Assembly: GCA_025751475.1 (NCBI GenBank)
Contig: JAOWLD010000002.1
Location: 186,001-250,000, forward strand
DNA from: Rhodobacteraceae bacterium XHP0102
GTDB taxonomy: Bacteria > Pseudomonadota > Alphaproteobacteria > Rhodobacterales > Rhodobacteraceae
DNA: 64,000 nucleotides
Reading direction: 5' to 3'
Shown in pieces: positions 51,891 to 64,000 of the stretch (positions are counted from its first letter, which is position 1; every line of letters begins with the position of its first letter). Both the position numbers and the translations under genes were made by a program. A model generated the notes under the pieces. That model saw only the letters and a program-made list of their open reading frames with translations. It had not been told where the DNA came from and did no database searches.

Positions 51891-53435
51891 ATGTCCAACC
51901 GCGTGACTGCCATTCACACATCCCACAGGCCCAAAGCCGTTGTCATCGGTGCTGGTATGGGCGGACTGACCGCTGCCTTGCGTTTGGCTCATGCGGGTTG
52001 CGCGGTCACGGTCATCGAAGCGCAAAATACCGTTGGCGGCAAAATGCGGACGGTCCCAAGCGCGGCTGGACCCGTGGATGCGGGCCCAACAGTGGTCACC
52101 ATGCGGCCCGTTTTTGAAAAGCTCTTTTCGGATTTGGGCACAGATTTAAAAGATCACGTCCATCTCACGCGCTTAGAAATTCTTGCGCGGCATTTTTGGC
52201 CTGATGGCAGCACCCTTGATCTTTACGATGATATCGATGCCTCCGCTGCGGCAATCGCCCAGTTTGCAGGTGCAAAGGCACGGTCTGATTTCTTGGCCTT
52301 CCATCGTGAGAGCACGGCTTTGTTCACTGCCTTTGAAGGGCCAATGATCCGAAGCCCTGATCCAAGCAAAATGGATTTGACCCTCACCGTTTTAAGGTCA
52401 CCACATATTTTGCGCGCCATGGCGCCGCATCAAAACCTCGCGCAATCTTTGGAAAAACGGTTCGGCGATCCGCGCTTGGCACAGCTTTTTGGGCGATATT
52501 CGACATATATCGGGGGCAATCCCTATCTCAGCCCTGCGCTTTTGGCGCTGATTTGGGCATCCGAGGCAGCAGGCGTCTGGCGCGTTGAAGGCGGGATTCA
52601 TCAACTCGCCCTCGCAATGCAGAAACTGGGCACGGACTTGGGCATTCGTTTTCTTATGGGCACTTCCGTTGAGCGGCTGCACCATGACCATGGGCGGGTG
52701 CATCAAGTGGCGCTGTCCACAGGGGAAGTTTGCGCTGCGGATGTGGTGCTGTTCAACGGCGATCCGCGCGCGATTCACATTGGGCTTTTGGGGGCGGATC
52801 TGCAATCAATCGTTCCGCGCCAAAAGGTCGAGCCTCGCAGCCTTTCCGCCCATGTGTGGGCCTTTGCGTCCCGCGTCTCAGGACGGGCGTTGGCCCATCA
52901 TAATGTGTTCTTCGGCGCTGATCCGCGCAGCGAATTTGATCCCATCGCGGCAGGCGAGATGCCGCGTGACCCCACGCTTTACGTCTGCGCACAAGATGCA
53001 GGTTCAGCGCAGGATCAAATGCAGCGATTTGAAATTATCATGAATGGTGCGCCGAGCCGTGCTGAAACCAAAAGGGAGGTCGCCTTATGTCGCGATCTGA
53101 CATTCCAGACCTTGGCCGCGCGTGGCCTGAAATTTCAAGATCCGATTCCAGACGGGGCGCTGACAAGCCCAATGGATTTTGCGGAGATCTTTCCAGCCTC
53201 GTGCGGATCCCTTTACGGGCGCAGCCCACATGGTCTGACAGCGGGGCTGAAACGTCCACGCGCGCGCACGGCCCTGAAGGGTCTTTATCTGGCGGGGGGC
53301 GGAACACATCCAGGGGCGGGGATACCAATGGCCTGCCTCTCAGGACAGCACGCGGCCGAGGCGATATTAACGGACCTTGTTTCAACCTCGCCGTTCCGCC
53401 CAATGGCTACGCGTGGTGGTATATTGACGGCATAA
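51891..53435 (+). CDS. crtD: Methoxyneurosporene dehydrogenase (hydroxyneurosporene desaturase)
   Basis: 514 residues. CrtI-family FAD desaturase introducing the C-3,4 double bond. N-terminal VVIGAGMGGLTAALRLAHAG at about 17-36 and the VDAGPTVVTMRPVFEKLF element; the C-terminal GLYLAGGGTHPGAGIPMAC signature is intact. Start at 51891 after AAAAGAG. Its 3' part overlaps crtC in another frame. Confidence 0.94.
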   Translation: MSNRVTAIHTSHRPKAVVIGAGMGGLTAALRLAHAGCAVTVIEAQNTVGGKMRTVPSAAGPVDAGPTVVTMRPVFEKLFSDLGTDLKDHVHLTRLEILARHFWPDGSTLDLYDDIDASAAAIAQFAGAKARSDFLAFHRESTALFTAFEGPMIRSPDPSKMDLTLTVLRSPHILRAMAPHQNLAQSLEKRFGDPRLAQLFGRYSTYIGGNPYLSPALLALIWASEAAGVWRVEGGIHQLALAMQKLGTDLGIRFLMGTSVERLHHDHGRVHQVALSTGEVCAADVVLFNGDPRAIHIGLLGADLQSIVPRQKVEPRSLSAHVWAFASRVSGRALAHHNVFFGADPRSEFDPIAAGEMPRDPTLYVCAQDAGSAQDQMQRFEIIMNGAPSRAETKREVALCRDLTFQTLAARGLKFQDPIPDGALTSPMDFAEIFPASCGSLYGRSPHGLTAGLKRPRARTALKGLYLAGGGTHPGAGIPMACLSGQHAAEAILTDLVSTSPFRPMATRGGILTA

Positions 53436-54307
53436 GTGCGGATGGCACTAAGGCCATTTCCATCATTGCCTTTATCGGCTCAGTGTTTTCGCCTTGGTAT
53501 CGTTGGTCAGGCCGCAAAGATCCTGAAGACCATTGTTGCCTGAATGTGGTGACCTACGGAAAGGGCGGTCGATGGACGATGACAGACCGCGGTCGCGATG
53601 CATTAGAATTGTCTGAGTCTCAGATGACTATAGGGCCAAGCGCCCTGAATTGGGACGGAACGGCCTTAACCATCACCATTGACGAACGCAGCACGCCCCA
53701 TGGACAACGGCTCAAAGGAAAAGTGACCCTAACACCTAGTGCAGTGACGGATGTGGAGCTTCCGCTTTGTGAAGATGGCGCACATATCTGGCGGCCATTT
53801 GCCCCTGTCGCAGATATTGACGTGCAGTTGGAAAAATCAGGATGGTCTTGGTCTGGGCATGGGTATTTCGATGCGAATTTCGGAACCCGTGCGCTGGAGC
53901 AAGATTTCGACTATTGGACATGGGGGCGATTTCCAACCGAAGCAGGGGCTTGCTGTTTTTATGATGCAACCCGTTGCGATGGCAGCCATTTGGCCGCCGC
54001 CATCACATTCGACAAAAACGGCCACGCCCATACTGTGCAAAGCCCGCCACGTGCAAGTTTCAAACCCGCCTTCTGGGGCGTGCATCGTGAAACGCGCGCA
54101 GACCTTGGGTTTGCCCCGCATGAGGTTATGCCAATGCTGGACGCACCGTTTTATAACCGCGCGATGGTCGAAACCAAAATCAACGGTGAGGTGGTCACGG
54201 GCGTTCATGAATCCCTCGATTTAAGCCGTTTTAGAAAACCTTGGCTTATGCCCATGTTGGCGATGCGGGTGCCGAGGCGTAAAAATTGGCCGAAGCAGCG
54301 GTTGTGA
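53087..54307 (+). CDS. crtC: Hydroxyneurosporene synthase (carotenoid 1,2-hydratase)
   Basis: Hydrates the psi end of neurosporene and related carotenoids. The recognisable domain starts near 53378 (CFNLAVPPNGYAWWYIDG) and includes IAFIGSVFSPWYRWSGRKDP and FDYWTWGR. The start is uncertain: the only in-frame ATG is 53087, with a good GGGAGG site, but that makes a 349-base overlap with crtD and an N-terminal ~95 residues that look like an out-of-frame reading of crtD. A GTG at 53213 or a non-standard start near 53333-53378 are alternatives. The stop is firm. Confidence 0.88.
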   Translation: MSRSDIPDLGRAWPEISRSDSRRGADKPNGFCGDLSSLVRIPLRAQPTWSDSGAETSTRAHGPEGSLSGGGRNTSRGGDTNGLPLRTARGRGDINGPCFNLAVPPNGYAWWYIDGISADGTKAISIIAFIGSVFSPWYRWSGRKDPEDHCCLNVVTYGKGGRWTMTDRGRDALELSESQMTIGPSALNWDGTALTITIDERSTPHGQRLKGKVTLTPSAVTDVELPLCEDGAHIWRPFAPVADIDVQLEKSGWSWSGHGYFDANFGTRALEQDFDYWTWGRFPTEAGACCFYDATRCDGSHLAAAITFDKNGHAHTVQSPPRASFKPAFWGVHRETRADLGFAPHEVMPMLDAPFYNRAMVETKINGEVVTGVHESLDLSRFRKPWLMPMLAMRVPRRKNWPKQRL

Positions 54308-57756: not shown

Positions 57757-58416
57757 TCAGCCACCTGTGGCCACCAAAACCCAATTTGGGTTGTTGCTGC
57801 CCATCTCGCGGGCGAATGTCCAAATATCGCGCTGGCGTTTGATCTCGGTCGCGCTTCCCTCGACAATCTCACCATCCGCATTGCGCACCAAGGAAGTTAA
57901 CTCCGCTGCAAAGCGCACGGTCAATTCGCCCTCGCGCGATGTTGGGTCAAATTGGGCATCCTGCACAGCGATATCGCTTAGACCCACGAAATTTGCCTCG
58001 ATTTCCAAGCCTTGCGCACGGCGGGCCGCGATCACCTCGTCAAAACTTTCAGCCACTTCCGCGGATAGAAAATCGCGCAATTCTGAAATGTCCCCGCGCT
58101 CAAACGCCATTAAAATCATCTCATAGGCACCGCGCGCCCCTTGCAAGAACTCCTCCACCGAAAAACTGGGCTCTGCGGATTTCATCGCCGCAAGGGCGCG
58201 CGCCGCATCAGAACCTTCGGGCACGTGATCCGTGATATCCCGATCTGGTCCGCCCTCGATCACCTCAAAATTGCGGCTTTGGCTTGGCTTTGCGGCTTTG
58301 ATCGCATCTGGTGATTTTTCAAACCCCTCGCGGGTGCCCAAAACGGCGCGCAAACGCAGTATGAGGAAAATCGCGATCGCCGCGAGAACCAAAAGGGACA
58401 AAAACGATGAATTCAT
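57757..58416 (-). CDS. Tim44/TimA-domain membrane protein
   Basis: 219 residues from the ATG at 58416. An N-terminal membrane helix (about 5-21, FLSLLVLAAIAIFLILR), a charged linker, then a Tim44-like domain from about residue 75 (EEFLQGARGAYEMILMAF to the C-terminus). Alphaproteobacterial TimA proteins are relatives of mitochondrial Tim44; the cellular role is not settled. Divergent from fxsA. Confidence 0.88.
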   Translation of the reverse strand: MNSSFLSLLVLAAIAIFLILRLRAVLGTREGFEKSPDAIKAAKPSQSRNFEVIEGGPDRDITDHVPEGSDAARALAAMKSAEPSFSVEEFLQGARGAYEMILMAFERGDISELRDFLSAEVAESFDEVIAARRAQGLEIEANFVGLSDIAVQDAQFDPTSREGELTVRFAAELTSLVRNADGEIVEGSATEIKRQRDIWTFAREMGSNNPNWVLVATGG

Positions 58417-58548
58417 ATGTATTTCTCGATTCAACTTCGATGCAGGGGTTACAGGCAAGTGCTTGGCTTCATATGTAGGTATGGTCAGGCAGCAAGTCCA
58501 TGAATTGCGACATAGTTTTACCGACTATCTTTGCGAAAGGCTCAAAAA

Positions 58549-59007
58549 ATGTGGCTATTCCTTATTTTTCTTGCGGTTCCCCTCATTGAAATCGGCCTTT
58601 TTATCGAAATTGGGGGCGCAATCGGCCTGTGGCCCACCTTGGCGATTGTGGTCATTACCGCAGTTTTGGGCACCTCTCTGGTGCGCTCACAAGGAAGTAT
58701 CGCGCTGTCACAAATCAAATCGCGCTTTCATGAATTGTCCGATCCAACCGAAGCTTTGGCACATGGCGCAATGATTCTCATCGCTGGTGCATTGCTACTG
58801 ACACCAGGTTTTTTCACAGATGGTGTTGGCTTTGCCTTGCTGGTTCCACCTTTGCGAGAATTCTTAATTGGTCAGCTGCGCGCGCGGGTTCACGTCACTG
58901 GTTTCAGCACAACCACAGCGGACCCCGAGAAAGGCGTTATCATCGATGAAGATGGCGAAGTCATCGCGGCACGTGATCCTGGCCCTTCTAAATGGACGCG
59001 GCATTGA
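58549..59007 (+). CDS. fxsA: FxsA family membrane protein
   Basis: 152 residues from the ATG at 58549. Three or four hydrophobic segments, with the FxsA signatures VPLIEIGLFIEIGGAIG, AVLGTSLVRSQG and LLLTPGFFTDGVG. FxsA was named for easing phage T7 exclusion when overexpressed in E. coli; its normal role is unclear. Adjacent to secB, 56 bp downstream. Confidence 0.9.
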   Translation: MWLFLIFLAVPLIEIGLFIEIGGAIGLWPTLAIVVITAVLGTSLVRSQGSIALSQIKSRFHELSDPTEALAHGAMILIAGALLLTPGFFTDGVGFALLVPPLREFLIGQLRARVHVTGFSTTTADPEKGVIIDEDGEVIAARDPGPSKWTRH

Positions 59008-59063
59008 GGCTTTGACCATGGGCTGCTAAGAGGCGTTTAAAATTTGCCTGAGGGAGATCATGA

Positions 59064-59570
59064 ATGGCGAAGAAAGATGCAGATGCCGCGCAAGAAAATG
59101 GTGCGCAGCAGCAACCCGTGATGCCGCAGATGAAAATTCTGGGCCAATTTGTGCGCGATTTGTCCTTTGAAAACATCGCCGCGCAAAAATCGATCCAAGG
59201 GGCTGGTCAACCCGACATCCAACTGCGCGTGGCGCTTGATGGCGGCAAGCGTCCAACCGAAAAGCAATATAACGTCATTGTCAAAGTGACGATTGAAGCA
59301 AAAACCAAATCGGACACACCCGAAGCGATTTTCCGTGTTGATCTCGATTATGCGGGTATTTTCCACATCGACAATGTGCCCGAAGAACAGCTGCATCCCT
59401 ATTTGATGATTGAATGTCCACGGATGCTGTTTCCGTTCATCCGCCGGATTGTGTCGGATGTGACACGGGACGGGGGATATCTGCCGCTCAATCTTGATAC
59501 GATTGATTTCGTTGCGCTGTATCGAAATGAAATCGCGCGCAAGATGAGCGAACAAAAAGCAGACGCTTGA
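59064..59570 (+). CDS. secB: Protein-export chaperone SecB
   Basis: 168 residues. Tetrameric chaperone that holds Sec substrates unfolded and hands them to SecA. ILGQFVRDLSFENI, the IFHIDNVPEEQLHPYLMIECP stretch (positions about 99-119) and FVALY near the end are characteristic. Start after GAGGGAGA. Converges on dnaQ with a 3 bp gap. Confidence 0.96.
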   Translation: MAKKDADAAQENGAQQQPVMPQMKILGQFVRDLSFENIAAQKSIQGAGQPDIQLRVALDGGKRPTEKQYNVIVKVTIEAKTKSDTPEAIFRVDLDYAGIFHIDNVPEEQLHPYLMIECPRMLFPFIRRIVSDVTRDGGYLPLNLDTIDFVALYRNEIARKMSEQKADA

Positions 59571-59573
59571 TCG

Positions 59574-60260
59574 TCACTTGATCCAAATTGCGTTGCTGCC
59601 CATTTCGGCAATAAAATCGTGATGGGCAGCGCGCTCTGCCTCGGTAATGCGCGGGGGCAATGCTTGTGGTCTGCTGCGCGTAGGCGTGACGGGACGGACA
59701 ACATCGCGGTTCGTGTCATCTTTATTTTGGGATAGAACCAAATCGGGCTGTTTGCCGCCGATAAGCTCCAAATAGACCTCGGCCAAAATTTCCGAATCCA
59801 ACAGGGCGCCATGCTTCTCGCGCATCGAATTGTCCACGCCAAAGCGGCGGCACAGGGAATCGAGACTTGCGGGGGAGCCTGGAAATTTTCGGCGCGCGAT
59901 GGCCAAAGTATCAAGGGCCTGTTCTGTTGGAAGAGTGGGCTTATTCGCCCATGAAAGTTCGGCATTTAGAAATTTCATATCAAAACTGGCGTTGTGGATC
60001 ACCAGTTGAGCATCGCCTATAAAATCCAGAAAATCCTGCGCGATAGAGGCAAATGCGGGCTTATCCGCCAGGAATTCATCGCCCAAACCGTGAACGTTAA
60101 ACGCCTCCTGCGGCATTGGTCGTTCTGGATTGATGTATTGGTGATAGGTTTTGCCCGTGGGCAAGTGGTTCCACAATTCAACCGCACCAATTTCGACAAT
60201 GCGGTGCCCTTCATTTGGCTCAAATCCCGTGGTTTCTGTATCGAGGACGATTTCGCGCAT
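59574..60260 (-). CDS. dnaQ: DNA polymerase III epsilon subunit
   Basis: 228 residues. Proofreading 3'-5' exonuclease. Exo I motif [10 protein letters not shown] with Asp7 and Glu9, Exo [15 protein letters not shown], and Exo III with [18 protein letters not shown]-terminal tail (after about 170) would bind the polymerase alpha subunit. Starts 3 bp after coaE. Confidence 0.95.
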
Positions 60261-60263
60261 GAA

Positions 60264-60851
60264 TTATGTTTCATCCTTTATGGTCTGAATCAAGGCGCGC
60301 ACAGCAGCGCGGGTTTGCTCGCGTGATTTGGTTTCGATCACATAATCAGCGCGTTTTATTTTTTCGCAATTGGGTGTCTGGCGGGCAAGAATTTTATCAA
60401 ACAAGTCTTGGTCCATACCAGGTCGTGCCATAACGCGGGACTTTTGAGTTTCGGGATCCGTGGTCACGACCAATACCGCATCCAGCCATTCGTCTGCATG
60501 GGTTTCAAACAACAATGGGATATCACATAAAATGAGATCATATTCCGCGTGGTCGGCTATAAATTTTTCGCGGTCTTGCGCCACAAGGGGGTGAATAATG
60601 GATTCGAGCCGAGACAGGTTGTTTGGCTCTGATTTGACCCAAGATTTCAGGGCGCTTCGATCCACTGCCCCATGTTTCACAAAATCGGGGCTTAGAGATG
60701 CGAGCGAAGACACCGCCGCGCCACCTTTCTGGTAAAGCTTGGCCACAACCGCATCGGCATCCCAAACAGGAATTCCCTCGGCGTGAAACATTTGCGCTGT
60801 GGTGCTTTTCCCCATCCCAATTGAGCCGGTAAGACCGAGAAGAAAGCTCAT
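60264..60851 (-). CDS. coaE: Dephospho-CoA kinase
   Basis: 195 residues. Last step of CoA synthesis. P-loop GLTGSIGMGKSTTAQMF at residues 6-22, DADAVVAKLY and DIPLLFET are conserved. The start overlaps aroE by 4 bases. Confidence 0.95.
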   Translation of the reverse strand: MSFLLGLTGSIGMGKSTTAQMFHAEGIPVWDADAVVAKLYQKGGAAVSSLASLSPDFVKHGAVDRSALKSWVKSEPNNLSRLESIIHPLVAQDREKFIADHAEYDLILCDIPLLFETHADEWLDAVLVVTTDPETQKSRVMARPGMDQDLFDKILARQTPNCEKIKRADYVIETKSREQTRAAVRALIQTIKDET

Positions 60852-61681
60852 TTTTCCAAAACCGCTTGACGCAGTTCATCATCTATTTCTGGCGTTGTTC
60901 CGAACCATCGCGCAAAGCCCGGAGCCGCCTGATGCAATAACATTCCCAATCCATCAACGGCACGGAAACCAAGATCTTCGGCTTGTTGTAAAAGCGCGGT
61001 TTTCAGGGGCGCATAGACAATGTCATTGACCACTGCGTTGGGATTGAGATTTCGCAAATCTACATTCAGCGCTGGTTGTCCTGTCATACCCAGTGAGGTC
61101 GTATTCACGAGAAGATGACAGTCAGGCAAAAGATCAGGCAGCGCATCCAATCCAGCGGTGCGGAGCCTTGGACCAAAATGCGCCCGCAAATGATCAGCAC
61201 GCGCGACATTCCGGTTCAGAACATGAATCAGGGGCGCACCATCGTCCAAAAGGGCGGCAATCACGGCTTTGGCCGCACCGCCAGCACCCAAGATAACCGA
61301 AGGTCCAACGCTGCTTTGGAAATCAGGGATGTTTTGTTGAATATTTGTAAGGAAACCAATCCCATCTGTATTATCAGCCGTAATTTCCCCTGATTTTGAA
61401 AATGTCAGGGTATTTGCTGCGCCAATTGCGCGGGCGCGATCTGTCACGATATCCGCGCATTCTAACACCGCTGCTTTATGAGGAATGGTGACGTTGGCGC
61501 CGACAAATCCCAGTTTCGGAAGAAGGTGCAAAACGGCCTTCAAATCCTCTGCACGGGTATGCAGAGGCACATAATGTCCCGCGATTTGGTATTTTTTAAG
61601 CCAAAATCCGTGAAGCTTTGGCGATTTGCTATGCGCAATAGGATCACCCAGAACAGCCGCAAGTCGAACCATATCAGTCAT
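60848..61681 (-). CDS. aroE: Shikimate dehydrogenase
   Basis: 277 residues. NADPH-dependent reduction of 3-dehydroshikimate. GDPIAHSKSPKLHGFWL at the N-terminus, NVTIPHK with the catalytic Lys, and the VILGAGGAAKAVIAALLDDG Rossmann motif are present. Overlaps maf and coaE by 4 bases each. Confidence 0.95.
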   Translation of the reverse strand: MTDMVRLAAVLGDPIAHSKSPKLHGFWLKKYQIAGHYVPLHTRAEDLKAVLHLLPKLGFVGANVTIPHKAAVLECADIVTDRARAIGAANTLTFSKSGEITADNTDGIGFLTNIQQNIPDFQSSVGPSVILGAGGAAKAVIAALLDDGAPLIHVLNRNVARADHLRAHFGPRLRTAGLDALPDLLPDCHLLVNTTSLGMTGQPALNVDLRNLNPNAVVNDIVYAPLKTALLQQAEDLGFRAVDGLGMLLHQAAPGFARWFGTTPEIDDELRQAVLEK

Positions 61682-62274
61682 CGGTCAATAAACCCTCGCA
61701 AGGATAGGTAGTTGAGCACCTCGATCAAAGGAAAGCCGAGAACATCAAAATAACTGCCTTCTATGCGGCTGAACAGGCGTATTCCCTCCGACTCGAGCAT
61801 ATAACCGCCAACACTGGATTGGATAGCAGGCCAATTTCGGGAAAGGTAGTCGTCCAGATATGTATCCGTAAAGGTCGCCATATGTAACCGAACCACGCCA
61901 ACATGACGCCAAATCGGTTCGCATTCATCATAAATCACAACCGCAGACAGCAATTTATGAGAACCGCCTCGCAAGCGGATCAACTGATCACGCGCTTGAT
62001 CTCGATTTTGTGGTTTTGAAGAAATGTGACCCTCGAACTCAAGTATTTGGTCACAGCCCAGCACGACCGCTTCAGGAAACTTACGTGCGATTTTCGCTGC
62101 TTTCGCCTCGGCCAACTGATCGACCATGTCACGGGGCGCGAGATTTGCGGCGCGCAGACTTTGCTTCAAGGCCTCCTCATCGATTCGGGCGTTTACCGCC
62201 TCAAAAGACACAGATGCATTTCGCAAAAGTGTCTGACGGGTCTGCGACTGTGAGGCGAGAATGATTTTTTTCAT
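61678..62274 (-). CDS. maf: Maf-family nucleotide pyrophosphatase
   Basis: 198 residues from the ATG at 62274; the open frame upstream covers the intergenic DnaA-box region. Hydrolyses non-canonical NTPs; bacterial Maf affects septum formation. LASQSQTRQTLLRNA at the N-terminus and catalytic Asp75 in VLGCDQILEFEG. Heads maf-aroE-coaE-dnaQ, an order common in Rhodobacterales. Confidence 0.92.
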   Translation of the reverse strand: MKKIILASQSQTRQTLLRNASVSFEAVNARIDEEALKQSLRAANLAPRDMVDQLAEAKAAKIARKFPEAVVLGCDQILEFEGHISSKPQNRDQARDQLIRLRGGSHKLLSAVVIYDECEPIWRHVGVVRLHMATFTDTYLDDYLSRNWPAIQSSVGGYMLESEGIRLFSRIEGSYFDVLGFPLIEVLNYLSLRGFIDR

Positions 62275-62799
62275 AGGATGAACCCGTGGGTCTCTTTGGG
62301 GATATGTACTGGCACAAAGAGATGACATATCAAAATTCCAGATTTCAATCACAGCGAAACGGAGATGTTCGATATCCGATAGGCGACTTATCCCCGTGGA
62401 TATATTTGTCCAACCACTCCACAAAGCCCTTTGACCTGCAGGGATATCCGAATGTTATCCCCATGTTGTTATCATCTTTTATAGCCTAAAATATTGATTT
62501 TAAAATAAAATTATCTGAGCTTTGGTTATCTGGATATTTTTCACCACGATATAATATCTGTGGAAAACAGGCTGATATCCCCGTTTTCCCTGTTTTACAC
62601 AGAACTACAGACACAACATCTTCCTTTTCTAAATTTCTCTTTCATTAGAATGAAACCTGATGACAGCAGAAACGATGCTCGGTTGACTCAGGACAGATGG
62701 CTGCATAGAAGGCAGATAAATCGCCCGTTCGGGTGTGTTCTTTCCCCTTATTGACGTCTCTGTGTACTTAAACAGCCACACAGGGCACATGGACCGCTC
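62275..62799. other. Candidate replication origin (oriC-like) between maf and rho
   Basis: 525 bp without a gene, notably AT-rich for the window. DnaA-box-like sequences (consensus TTATCCACA): TTATCCCCG 62388-62396, TTATCCCCA 62455-62463, and TGTGGAAAA 62559-62567 (reverse). An AT tract at 62477-62520 could be the unwinding element. The pentamer GATAT recurs seven times. Position beside maf and rho fits alphaproteobacterial origins; not proven. Confidence 0.55.
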
Positions 62800-64000
62800 A
62801 TGACAGTGAATTCCCTAAACCTTGCCGATCTCAAGGCGAAGTCCCCAAAAGACCTGCTTTCTATGGCGGAAGAATTGGAGATCGAGAACGCATCAACCAT
62901 GCGTAAAGGCGATATGATGTTCGCCATTCTCAAGGAACGCGCAGAAGAGGGGTGGGATGTCTATGGGGATGGTGTTTTAGAAGTTTTGCAGGATGGATTT
63001 GGGTTTTTGCGCTCACCAGAGGCCAATTATCTTCCAGGCCCTGATGATATCTATGTTTCGCCTGATATGATCCGTCAGCACAGCTTGCGGACAGGTGATA
63101 CGGTGGAAGGTGTCATTGCCGCGCCGCGGGAAAGTGAAAATTATTTTGGCCTGACCAAAGTATCAAAAATCAATTTCGAGGTTCCAGAAAAGGCACGCCA
63201 CAAAGTGGCCTTTGATAACTTGACACCGCTTTATCCAGATGAGCGGTTGAAGATGGAAATCGAAGATCCGACCATTAAGGATCGTTCGGCGCGCATCATC
63301 GACTTGGTTTCACCGATTGGGAAGGGACAGCGCGCCCTTATCGTTGCGCCACCGCGAACAGGGAAAACTGTTCTTTTGCAGAATATCGCCCATTCAATCG
63401 AAACCAATCATCCAGAGTGTTATTTGCTGGTTCTTTTGATTGACGAACGCCCTGAAGAAGTGACGGATATGCAGCGCTCGGTGAAGGGTGAGGTCGTTTC
63501 CTCGACCTTTGATGAACCTGCAACGCGCCATGTGGCCGTCGCAGAAATGGTGATCGAGAAGGCCAAGCGTCTGGTTGAACATAAACGTGATGTTGTGATT
63601 TTGCTCGACTCGATCACGCGTCTTGGACGTGCCTACAACACGGTGGTTCCGTCATCGGGTAAGGTTTTGACAGGTGGTGTTGATGCAAACGCTTTGCAGC
63701 GGCCGAAGCGGTTTTTTGGTGCTGCACGGAACATCGAAGAAGGCGGATCGCTGACCATTATCGCCACAGCGCTTATCGATACGGGCAGCCGTATGGACGA
63801 AGTGATTTTTGAAGAATTCAAAGGCACCGGCAACTCTGAGATCGTTTTGGATCGCAAGGTGGCAGACAAACGTGTGTTCCCTGCGATGGATATTTTGAAA
63901 TCGGGAACCCGGAAAGAGGACCTGCTGGTCGATAAAGGTGATCTTCAGAAAACCTATGTCTTGCGGCGTATCCTCAACCCGATGGGCACCACAGATGCAA
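62800..64000 (+). CDS. rho: Transcription termination factor Rho, truncated by the right edge
   Basis: 400 residues are visible; Rho is about 420, so only the C-terminal ~20 are missing. N-terminal [23 protein letters not shown]-binding OSB domain ([18 protein letters not shown]), Walker [12 protein letters not shown], and the [21 protein letters not shown]-loop region are present. The ATG at 62800 lies in CGCTCATGACAG with a weak ribosome binding site; an upstream ATG at 62789 opens a four-codon frame that ends at the rho start. Confidence 0.95.

Follow-up and report, generated by a model that had tools for sequence, protein, structure and literature searches.

Where does chromosome replication begin in Rhodobacteraceae bacterium XHP0102? 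The genome of this bacterium (2.68 Mb in nine contigs, 99.98% completeness) includes a contig of 622,632 bases (C2), and the window considered here is a stretch of 64,000 nucleotides corresponding to bases 186001–250000 of that contig. Close to the right-hand end of the window lies a spacer of 525 bp (62275–62799, or 248.3–248.8 kb on C2) flanked by the divergently transcribed genes maf and rho, and a first-pass annotation had put this spacer forward as a candidate chromosomal replication origin (oriC). The results described below support that proposal on several counts: putative DnaA boxes, a likely unwinding tract, a switch in GC skew, nearby parS sites and parAB genes, and box places that are conserved across the family. 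We consider it highly likely, from these sequence data, that the maf–rho spacer is the replication origin.

The spacer bounds proposed in the annotation are exact. To the left, the maf gene (61678–62274, minus strand), which encodes a Maf family nucleotide pyrophosphatase (TIGR00172, 126.5 bits against a cut-off of 117.15), has its start-codon side at 62274; to the right, the gene encoding the transcription termination factor Rho (62800–63999, plus strand; TIGR00767, 656.7 bits against a cut-off of 509.45) starts at 62800 and runs beyond the window end. Further to the left of maf are found, among others, aroE, coaE, dnaQ, secB, hslU, hslV, crtC and crtD, and to the right of rho, beyond the window, mnmE, mnmG, rsmG, parA and parB. 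The spacer is gene-free, with no separate open reading frame of 90 amino acids or more inside it (the single mechanically predicted ORF is a 5′ extension of maf from a TTG codon), and is AT-rich, with a GC content of 0.42 in its first 520 bp versus 0.50 across the 4.2-kb locus.

DnaA boxes were counted principally as matches to TTATCCACA or ATATCCACA with no more than one mismatch, in a sample of 475 kb of C2. Five such boxes are present in the spacer, compared with a mean of 0.40 in simulated sequences (a count of five was reached in none of 1000 simulations), making it the top 525-bp window of the sample, ahead of a next best window with three. The three DnaA-box-like sequences reported in the annotation are also recovered, there being exactly three matches to TTATNCACA with up to one mismatch, at 62455 (plus strand), 62559 (minus) and 62593 (plus). 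This count is weak when taken alone and is not relied upon here, because it has a probability of about 0.03 when the region is modelled as a first-order Markov chain and several other windows of the C2 sample contain three or four boxes of this type. Neither a perfect TTATNCACA nor a perfect TTATCCACA is found in the spacer, the boxes having mostly ATATCC cores.

The individual DnaA-box-like sites begin close to maf with ATATCCCCA (62297–62305, minus strand), which stands at the place of the most conserved box in the family. This is followed by TTATCCCCG (62388–62396, plus strand, two mismatches), a site that reads TTATCCACG in three congeners and that overlaps ATATCCACG (62395–62403, minus strand), and then by TTATCCCCA (62455–62463, plus strand), at a family place with an offset of 165–200. 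The motif scan identified ATATCCAGA (62529–62537) and TTTTCCACA (62559–62567), both on the minus strand, as well as a weak site with two mismatches, ATATCCCCG (62575–62583, plus strand); a further weak site, TTTTACACA (62593–62601, plus strand), is one mismatch away from TTATNCACA. A stricter motif, WTATCCMCR, was picked after the spacer had been seen and occurs in it five times, against 0.044 expected per 525 bp. All neighbouring pairs of WTATCCMCR less than 525 bp apart in the C2 sample lie inside the spacer and the 97 sites listed for contig C1 reach a maximum of two per 525 bp. A DnaA-box cluster at another locus, an observation that according to the annotation would refute its proposal, was seen neither in the 475 kb of C2 nor among the listed C1 sites nor at the dnaA locus, the positional scan having covered C1 and all but about 148 kb of C2 (the whole of the 2.68 Mb except for roughly 1.0 Mb). 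Across the whole genome, WTATCCMCR is found 227 times versus 107 times for a reversed control, mostly with the ATATCC spelling among the sites listed, an excess that could reflect codon usage or DnaA sites spread genome-wide.

The annotation had also pointed to a likely unwinding tract, and calculations of nearest-neighbour duplex stability agree, placing the probable DNA-unwinding element at 62466–62556, within the DnaA-box array. Positions 62466–62515 form the least stable 50 bp among the 475 kb of C2 and 62477–62556 the second-least stable 80 bp; for 120 bp, the tract ranks third (tied). A single match to the IHF consensus, AATCAATATTTTA, lies in the tract (62487–62499, minus strand) and may be a binding site for that protein. 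No full CtrA site (TTAA-N7-TTAA) is present in the spacer, such sites being seen in six of 39 family spacers. In Escherichia coli oriC, DnaA boxes are located beside an unwinding element and the XHP0102 spacer would operate on the same principle, with differences from E. coli in neighbouring genes and in box number and spacing.

GC skew, a check suggested in the annotation, can be applied at a resolution of 10–100 kb. Along C2 a change point separates mostly negative skew on its left (mean −0.029) from mostly positive skew on its right (mean +0.031); it is best placed at 238.5 kb, with a 5–95% bootstrap interval of 131.5–281.5 kb that is wide and includes the spacer. The cumulative skew minimum, at 237.7 kb, lies 10.6 kb to the left of the spacer, beside crtD. 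From a congener with a single contig of 2,663,031 bases (G003), 525 kb was sampled, more densely around rho and without weighting. The best two-replichore fit has its origin at 1.90 Mb and its terminus at 0.50 Mb; rho is found at 1,900,630–1,901,829, and 56 of 60 bootstrap replicates placed the origin at 1.8–2.0 Mb. In three other genomes of the family, each a single contig, coarse fits place the origin 329–429 kb from rho. When one of these, G174, is sampled more finely, the estimate shifts to about 4.08 Mb; fixing the origin at rho explains 54% as much as the best fit, and thus the skew does not confirm the locus in that genome. Nor does it in the other two.

In many other bacteria the origin is at or near dnaA–dnaN, which in XHP0102 would mean C2:80.6–82 kb, 166 kb from the spacer. 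A beta-clamp-like ORF (dnaN, assigned by eye) is located downstream of dnaA, three loose boxes are found at 86.5–86.9 kb, and the bootstrap interval of the skew change point extends down to 131.5 kb, no more than about 50 kb from dnaA. The dnaA locus itself (79.0–84.5 kb), however, has four loose sites scattered over 5.5 kb rather than a cluster, the skew is negative in every sampled 10-kb bin between 1 and 140 kb, on both sides of dnaA, and in G003 the dnaA gene lies at 2.044 Mb as against a skew origin of 1.90 Mb. A dnaA-proximal origin was rejected on the absence of a box cluster there and we regard it as extremely improbable. According to passages of a survey of alphaproteobacterial genomes, dnaA tends toward the origin in genomes of this order (PMC8116508), a tendency that the 166 kb separating dnaA from the spacer fits.

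Two perfect parS sites are found on C2, at 251385 and 253293, which is 2.6 and 4.5 kb from the maf–rho spacer, with parA and parB at 253.9–255.6 kb, so that the sites and genes together span 2.6–6.8 kb from it. The corresponding region of G003 also has two perfect parS sites, and in each of the seven single-contig genomes of the family that were tested, the best match to parB is within 7 kb of rho. In the same survey, parAB are reported near the origin in almost all of 179 alphaproteobacterial genomes (PMC8116508). At C2:251385 the parS site overlaps the opening codons of mnmG (MFHVKH).

A DNA similarity search with the spacer against 41 genomes gave matches only in XHP0102 itself and in one congener, and conservation was therefore tested by synteny. 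Among 110 rho loci (30 + 80), maf was found in 83, of which 39 were short-type (a maf–rho distance under 1.25–1.3 kb) and 44 longer; 37 of the 39 short-type spacers have at least two boxes. When these 39 are combined with 27 of 28 further loci, the resulting 66 family spacers average 3.32 boxes, compared with 0.124 per 520 bp in the remainder of the loci; 63 of the spacers contain two or more boxes and one contains none. Place and strand are conserved as well. At 0–30 bp from maf, 52 of the 66 spacers have a box, and all 53 matches at this place are on the minus strand; of the 27 family matches at an offset of 165–200 from maf, 26 are on the plus strand. Where an extra gene precedes rho (a UPF0093, hemJ-type gene in the locus tested, L079), the box array remains beside maf.

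This last observation bears on the question of whether the spacer is merely a divergent promoter or leader region for maf and rho, serving for example in rho autoregulation, with the DnaA-like sites there by chance or as regulatory DnaA sites and the true origin elsewhere nearby. A possible rho promoter, TTGACT-17-TAGAAG (62683–62711, plus strand), was recognised by eye; it is absent from the promoter scan list, and both of its hexamers are invariant in a four-genome alignment. The scan itself gave one promoter-like site (62478–62506, with 1.4 expected) and there is one terminator-like stem (62722–62735, with 0.6 expected). The conserved box array, however, lies in the 335 bp nearest to maf, on the far side from rho, and keeps to maf when the two genes are separated, and neither the skew switch nor the parS sites would be explained by a promoter. 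A role confined to transcription is in our view very unlikely; the final 120 bp toward rho probably contain the rho promoter. An RNA leader for rho was rejected, since the predicted folding is no better than that of shuffled sequences (z = 1.0) and an Rfam scan of 58000–64000 gave no match.

What sets the XHP0102 spacer apart is how its boxes are spelled. The seven GATAT repeats described in the first-pass annotation are there, exactly seven of them on the plus strand, but are mostly cores of a DnaA-box variant and for the most part do not form a separate feature. Counting both strands, GATAT occurs 12 times versus 1.89 expected, a number reached in none of 1000 simulations. The hexamers ATATCC/GGATAT occur seven times, spanning 62297–62583, the highest number for any 525-bp stretch in the 475 kb (the next has four). 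Three congeners have zero, one and one copies, and none of 65 other family spacers has more than three; the seven-copy array is unique among the 66. In the four-genome alignment, ATATCC/GATAT replaces the TTATCC/GATAA of the congeners at offset 22 and near column 303. The DnaA proteins of the congeners are 90–95% identical to one another, and FGGRDHTTILHG, which we take to be the DNA-binding signature of DnaA, is identical in four congeners. A change in DnaA matching the ATATCC boxes was accordingly rejected.

Might the ATATCC/GATAT array then be a distinct regulatory element for another protein, lying inside oriC and compatible with it? The seven copies, set against zero or one in the congeners and at most three in the other 65 spacers, would fit such an element, as would the constancy of the DnaA signature, owing to which nothing seen in DnaA accounts for the switch in spelling. 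Some of the ATATCC copies, however, occupy the exact places of the TTATCC/GATAA sequences of the congeners, and TGTGGATAT, the reverse complement of ATATCCACA, served as a Rhodobacteraceae DnaA-box motif in Kopejtka et al. 2019 (PMC6699656). We consider a separate element unlikely. The simplest reading of the respelling is a turnover of weak boxes, and the spacer is very probably an ordinary oriC for the Rhodobacteraceae that is unusual in the spelling of some putative initiator-binding sites.

At such an origin, DnaA-ATP would bind the ordered boxes on both strands, with their TTATCC and, in XHP0102, mostly ATATCC cores, perhaps with the help of IHF or another DNA-bending protein at the single IHF consensus site. 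Melting would then occur in the AT-rich tract inside the array (about 62466–62556), and the helicase would be loaded. Of the two forks departing, one would copy maf, secB and the photosynthesis cluster and the other rho, mnmE–mnmG–rsmG and parAB, and ParB bound at the two parS sites, which lie 2.6 and 4.5 kb from the spacer, would segregate the newly replicated origins.

How does this compare with origins described elsewhere? The annotation had placed alphaproteobacterial origins near maf, rho and hemE; maf and rho do adjoin the spacer, but hemE lies elsewhere, at 115 kb on contig C1. In the family sample, hemE is found between maf and rho in 39 of the 44 longer loci and in none of the 39 short-type loci, and the 500 bp upstream of hemE in the former contain at least two boxes in 23 cases, one box in six and none in ten. 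Among six loci whose ORFs in the interval from maf to hemE were collected, four gave long frames on the opposite strand; of the other two, the one tested by Pfam (L095) has a Kinase-PPPase (COG1806-type) gene in that interval. The Caulobacter crescentus origin, Cori, lies between hemE and a COG1806 gene, as described in passages of PMC1914354. Given the presence of hemE in 39 of the 44 longer loci, the XHP0102 spacer corresponds in position to a Caulobacter-type origin locus without hemE. Like Cori as portrayed in those passages, it combines an AT-rich tract with several DnaA boxes in a syntenic neighbourhood, and there is one match that is IHF-like; unlike Cori, it has no full CtrA site and is not bounded by hemE, maf and rho adjoining it directly (PMC1914354).

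Closer relatives provide a second comparison. Kopejtka et al. 2019 assigned oriC by prediction in 101 Rhodobacteraceae strains, with TTATCCACA, TGTTTCACG and TGTGGATAT given as DnaA-box motifs (PMC6699656). The maf–rho spacer resembles the origins described there in having a cluster of boxes of the same motifs, a local GC minimum, and parAB and a skew switch nearby, and differs from them in its mostly ATATCC cores and the absence of a perfect TTATCCACA (PMC6699656).

The location of the spacer has a further consequence. The crtC gene, near the end of the photosynthesis gene cluster (53300–54307, plus strand, start uncertain; NF045922, 477.8 bits against a cut-off of 400), ends at 54307, and the cluster thus begins about 8 kb from the spacer, just as the annotation had it. 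G003 has the same gene order maf, hslUV, crtC, with 8.5 kb between crtC and rho. In a first sample of 120 genomes, 46 of which had a crtC match, crtC and rho were on one contig in 15 and no more than 160 kb apart in 11 of these by hand comparison, a proportion to be read in the light of fragmented assemblies favouring near pairs. A second, overlapping sample had a crtC match in at least 152 of 395 genomes, from which a subset of 32 was drawn (E below 1e-100, at most about ten contigs, two genomes with weak matches being omitted; one member, G077, scores below the family cut-off). Six genomes with the two genes on different contigs were dropped. In 17 of the remaining 26, crtC is within 160 kb of rho (range 8.5–158 kb), this being a raw count that ignores kinship, and in nine it is 316 kb to 1.9 Mb away, all distances having been entered by hand and those for G174 and G184 being approximate. 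Among single-contig genomes the figure is four of seven. Random placement would put crtC within 160 kb of rho in about 8% of genomes (320 kb of about 3.9 Mb). The spread from 8.5 to 158 kb implies rearrangements between the two genes.

That selection holds the photosynthesis cluster close to the origin in phototrophic Rhodobacteraceae is a tentative suggestion that we think rather unlikely. A benefit in fast growth, where the annotation had foreseen raised copy number, is not favoured by what is reported for Roseobacter litoralis, in which the effect of light on respiration is seen mainly in stationary phase, according to passages of PMC3141670. Proximity of the cluster to the origin was not found in the titles, opening lines of abstracts and open-licence texts searched, and is not discussed in passages of PMC3141670, PMC6739100 and PMC6052148.

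Taken as the probable replication start of a small-genome member of the Rhodobacteraceae, the maf–rho spacer illustrates how the alphaproteobacterial origin neighbourhood appears when trimmed of hemE in this family. It presents two puzzles. The putative boxes of the origin have been respelled while the DNA-binding signature of DnaA stayed constant, and in many genera the photosynthesis cluster is a near neighbour of the origin. If selection does keep the cluster there, its early replication, dosage or expression may matter to these bacteria.
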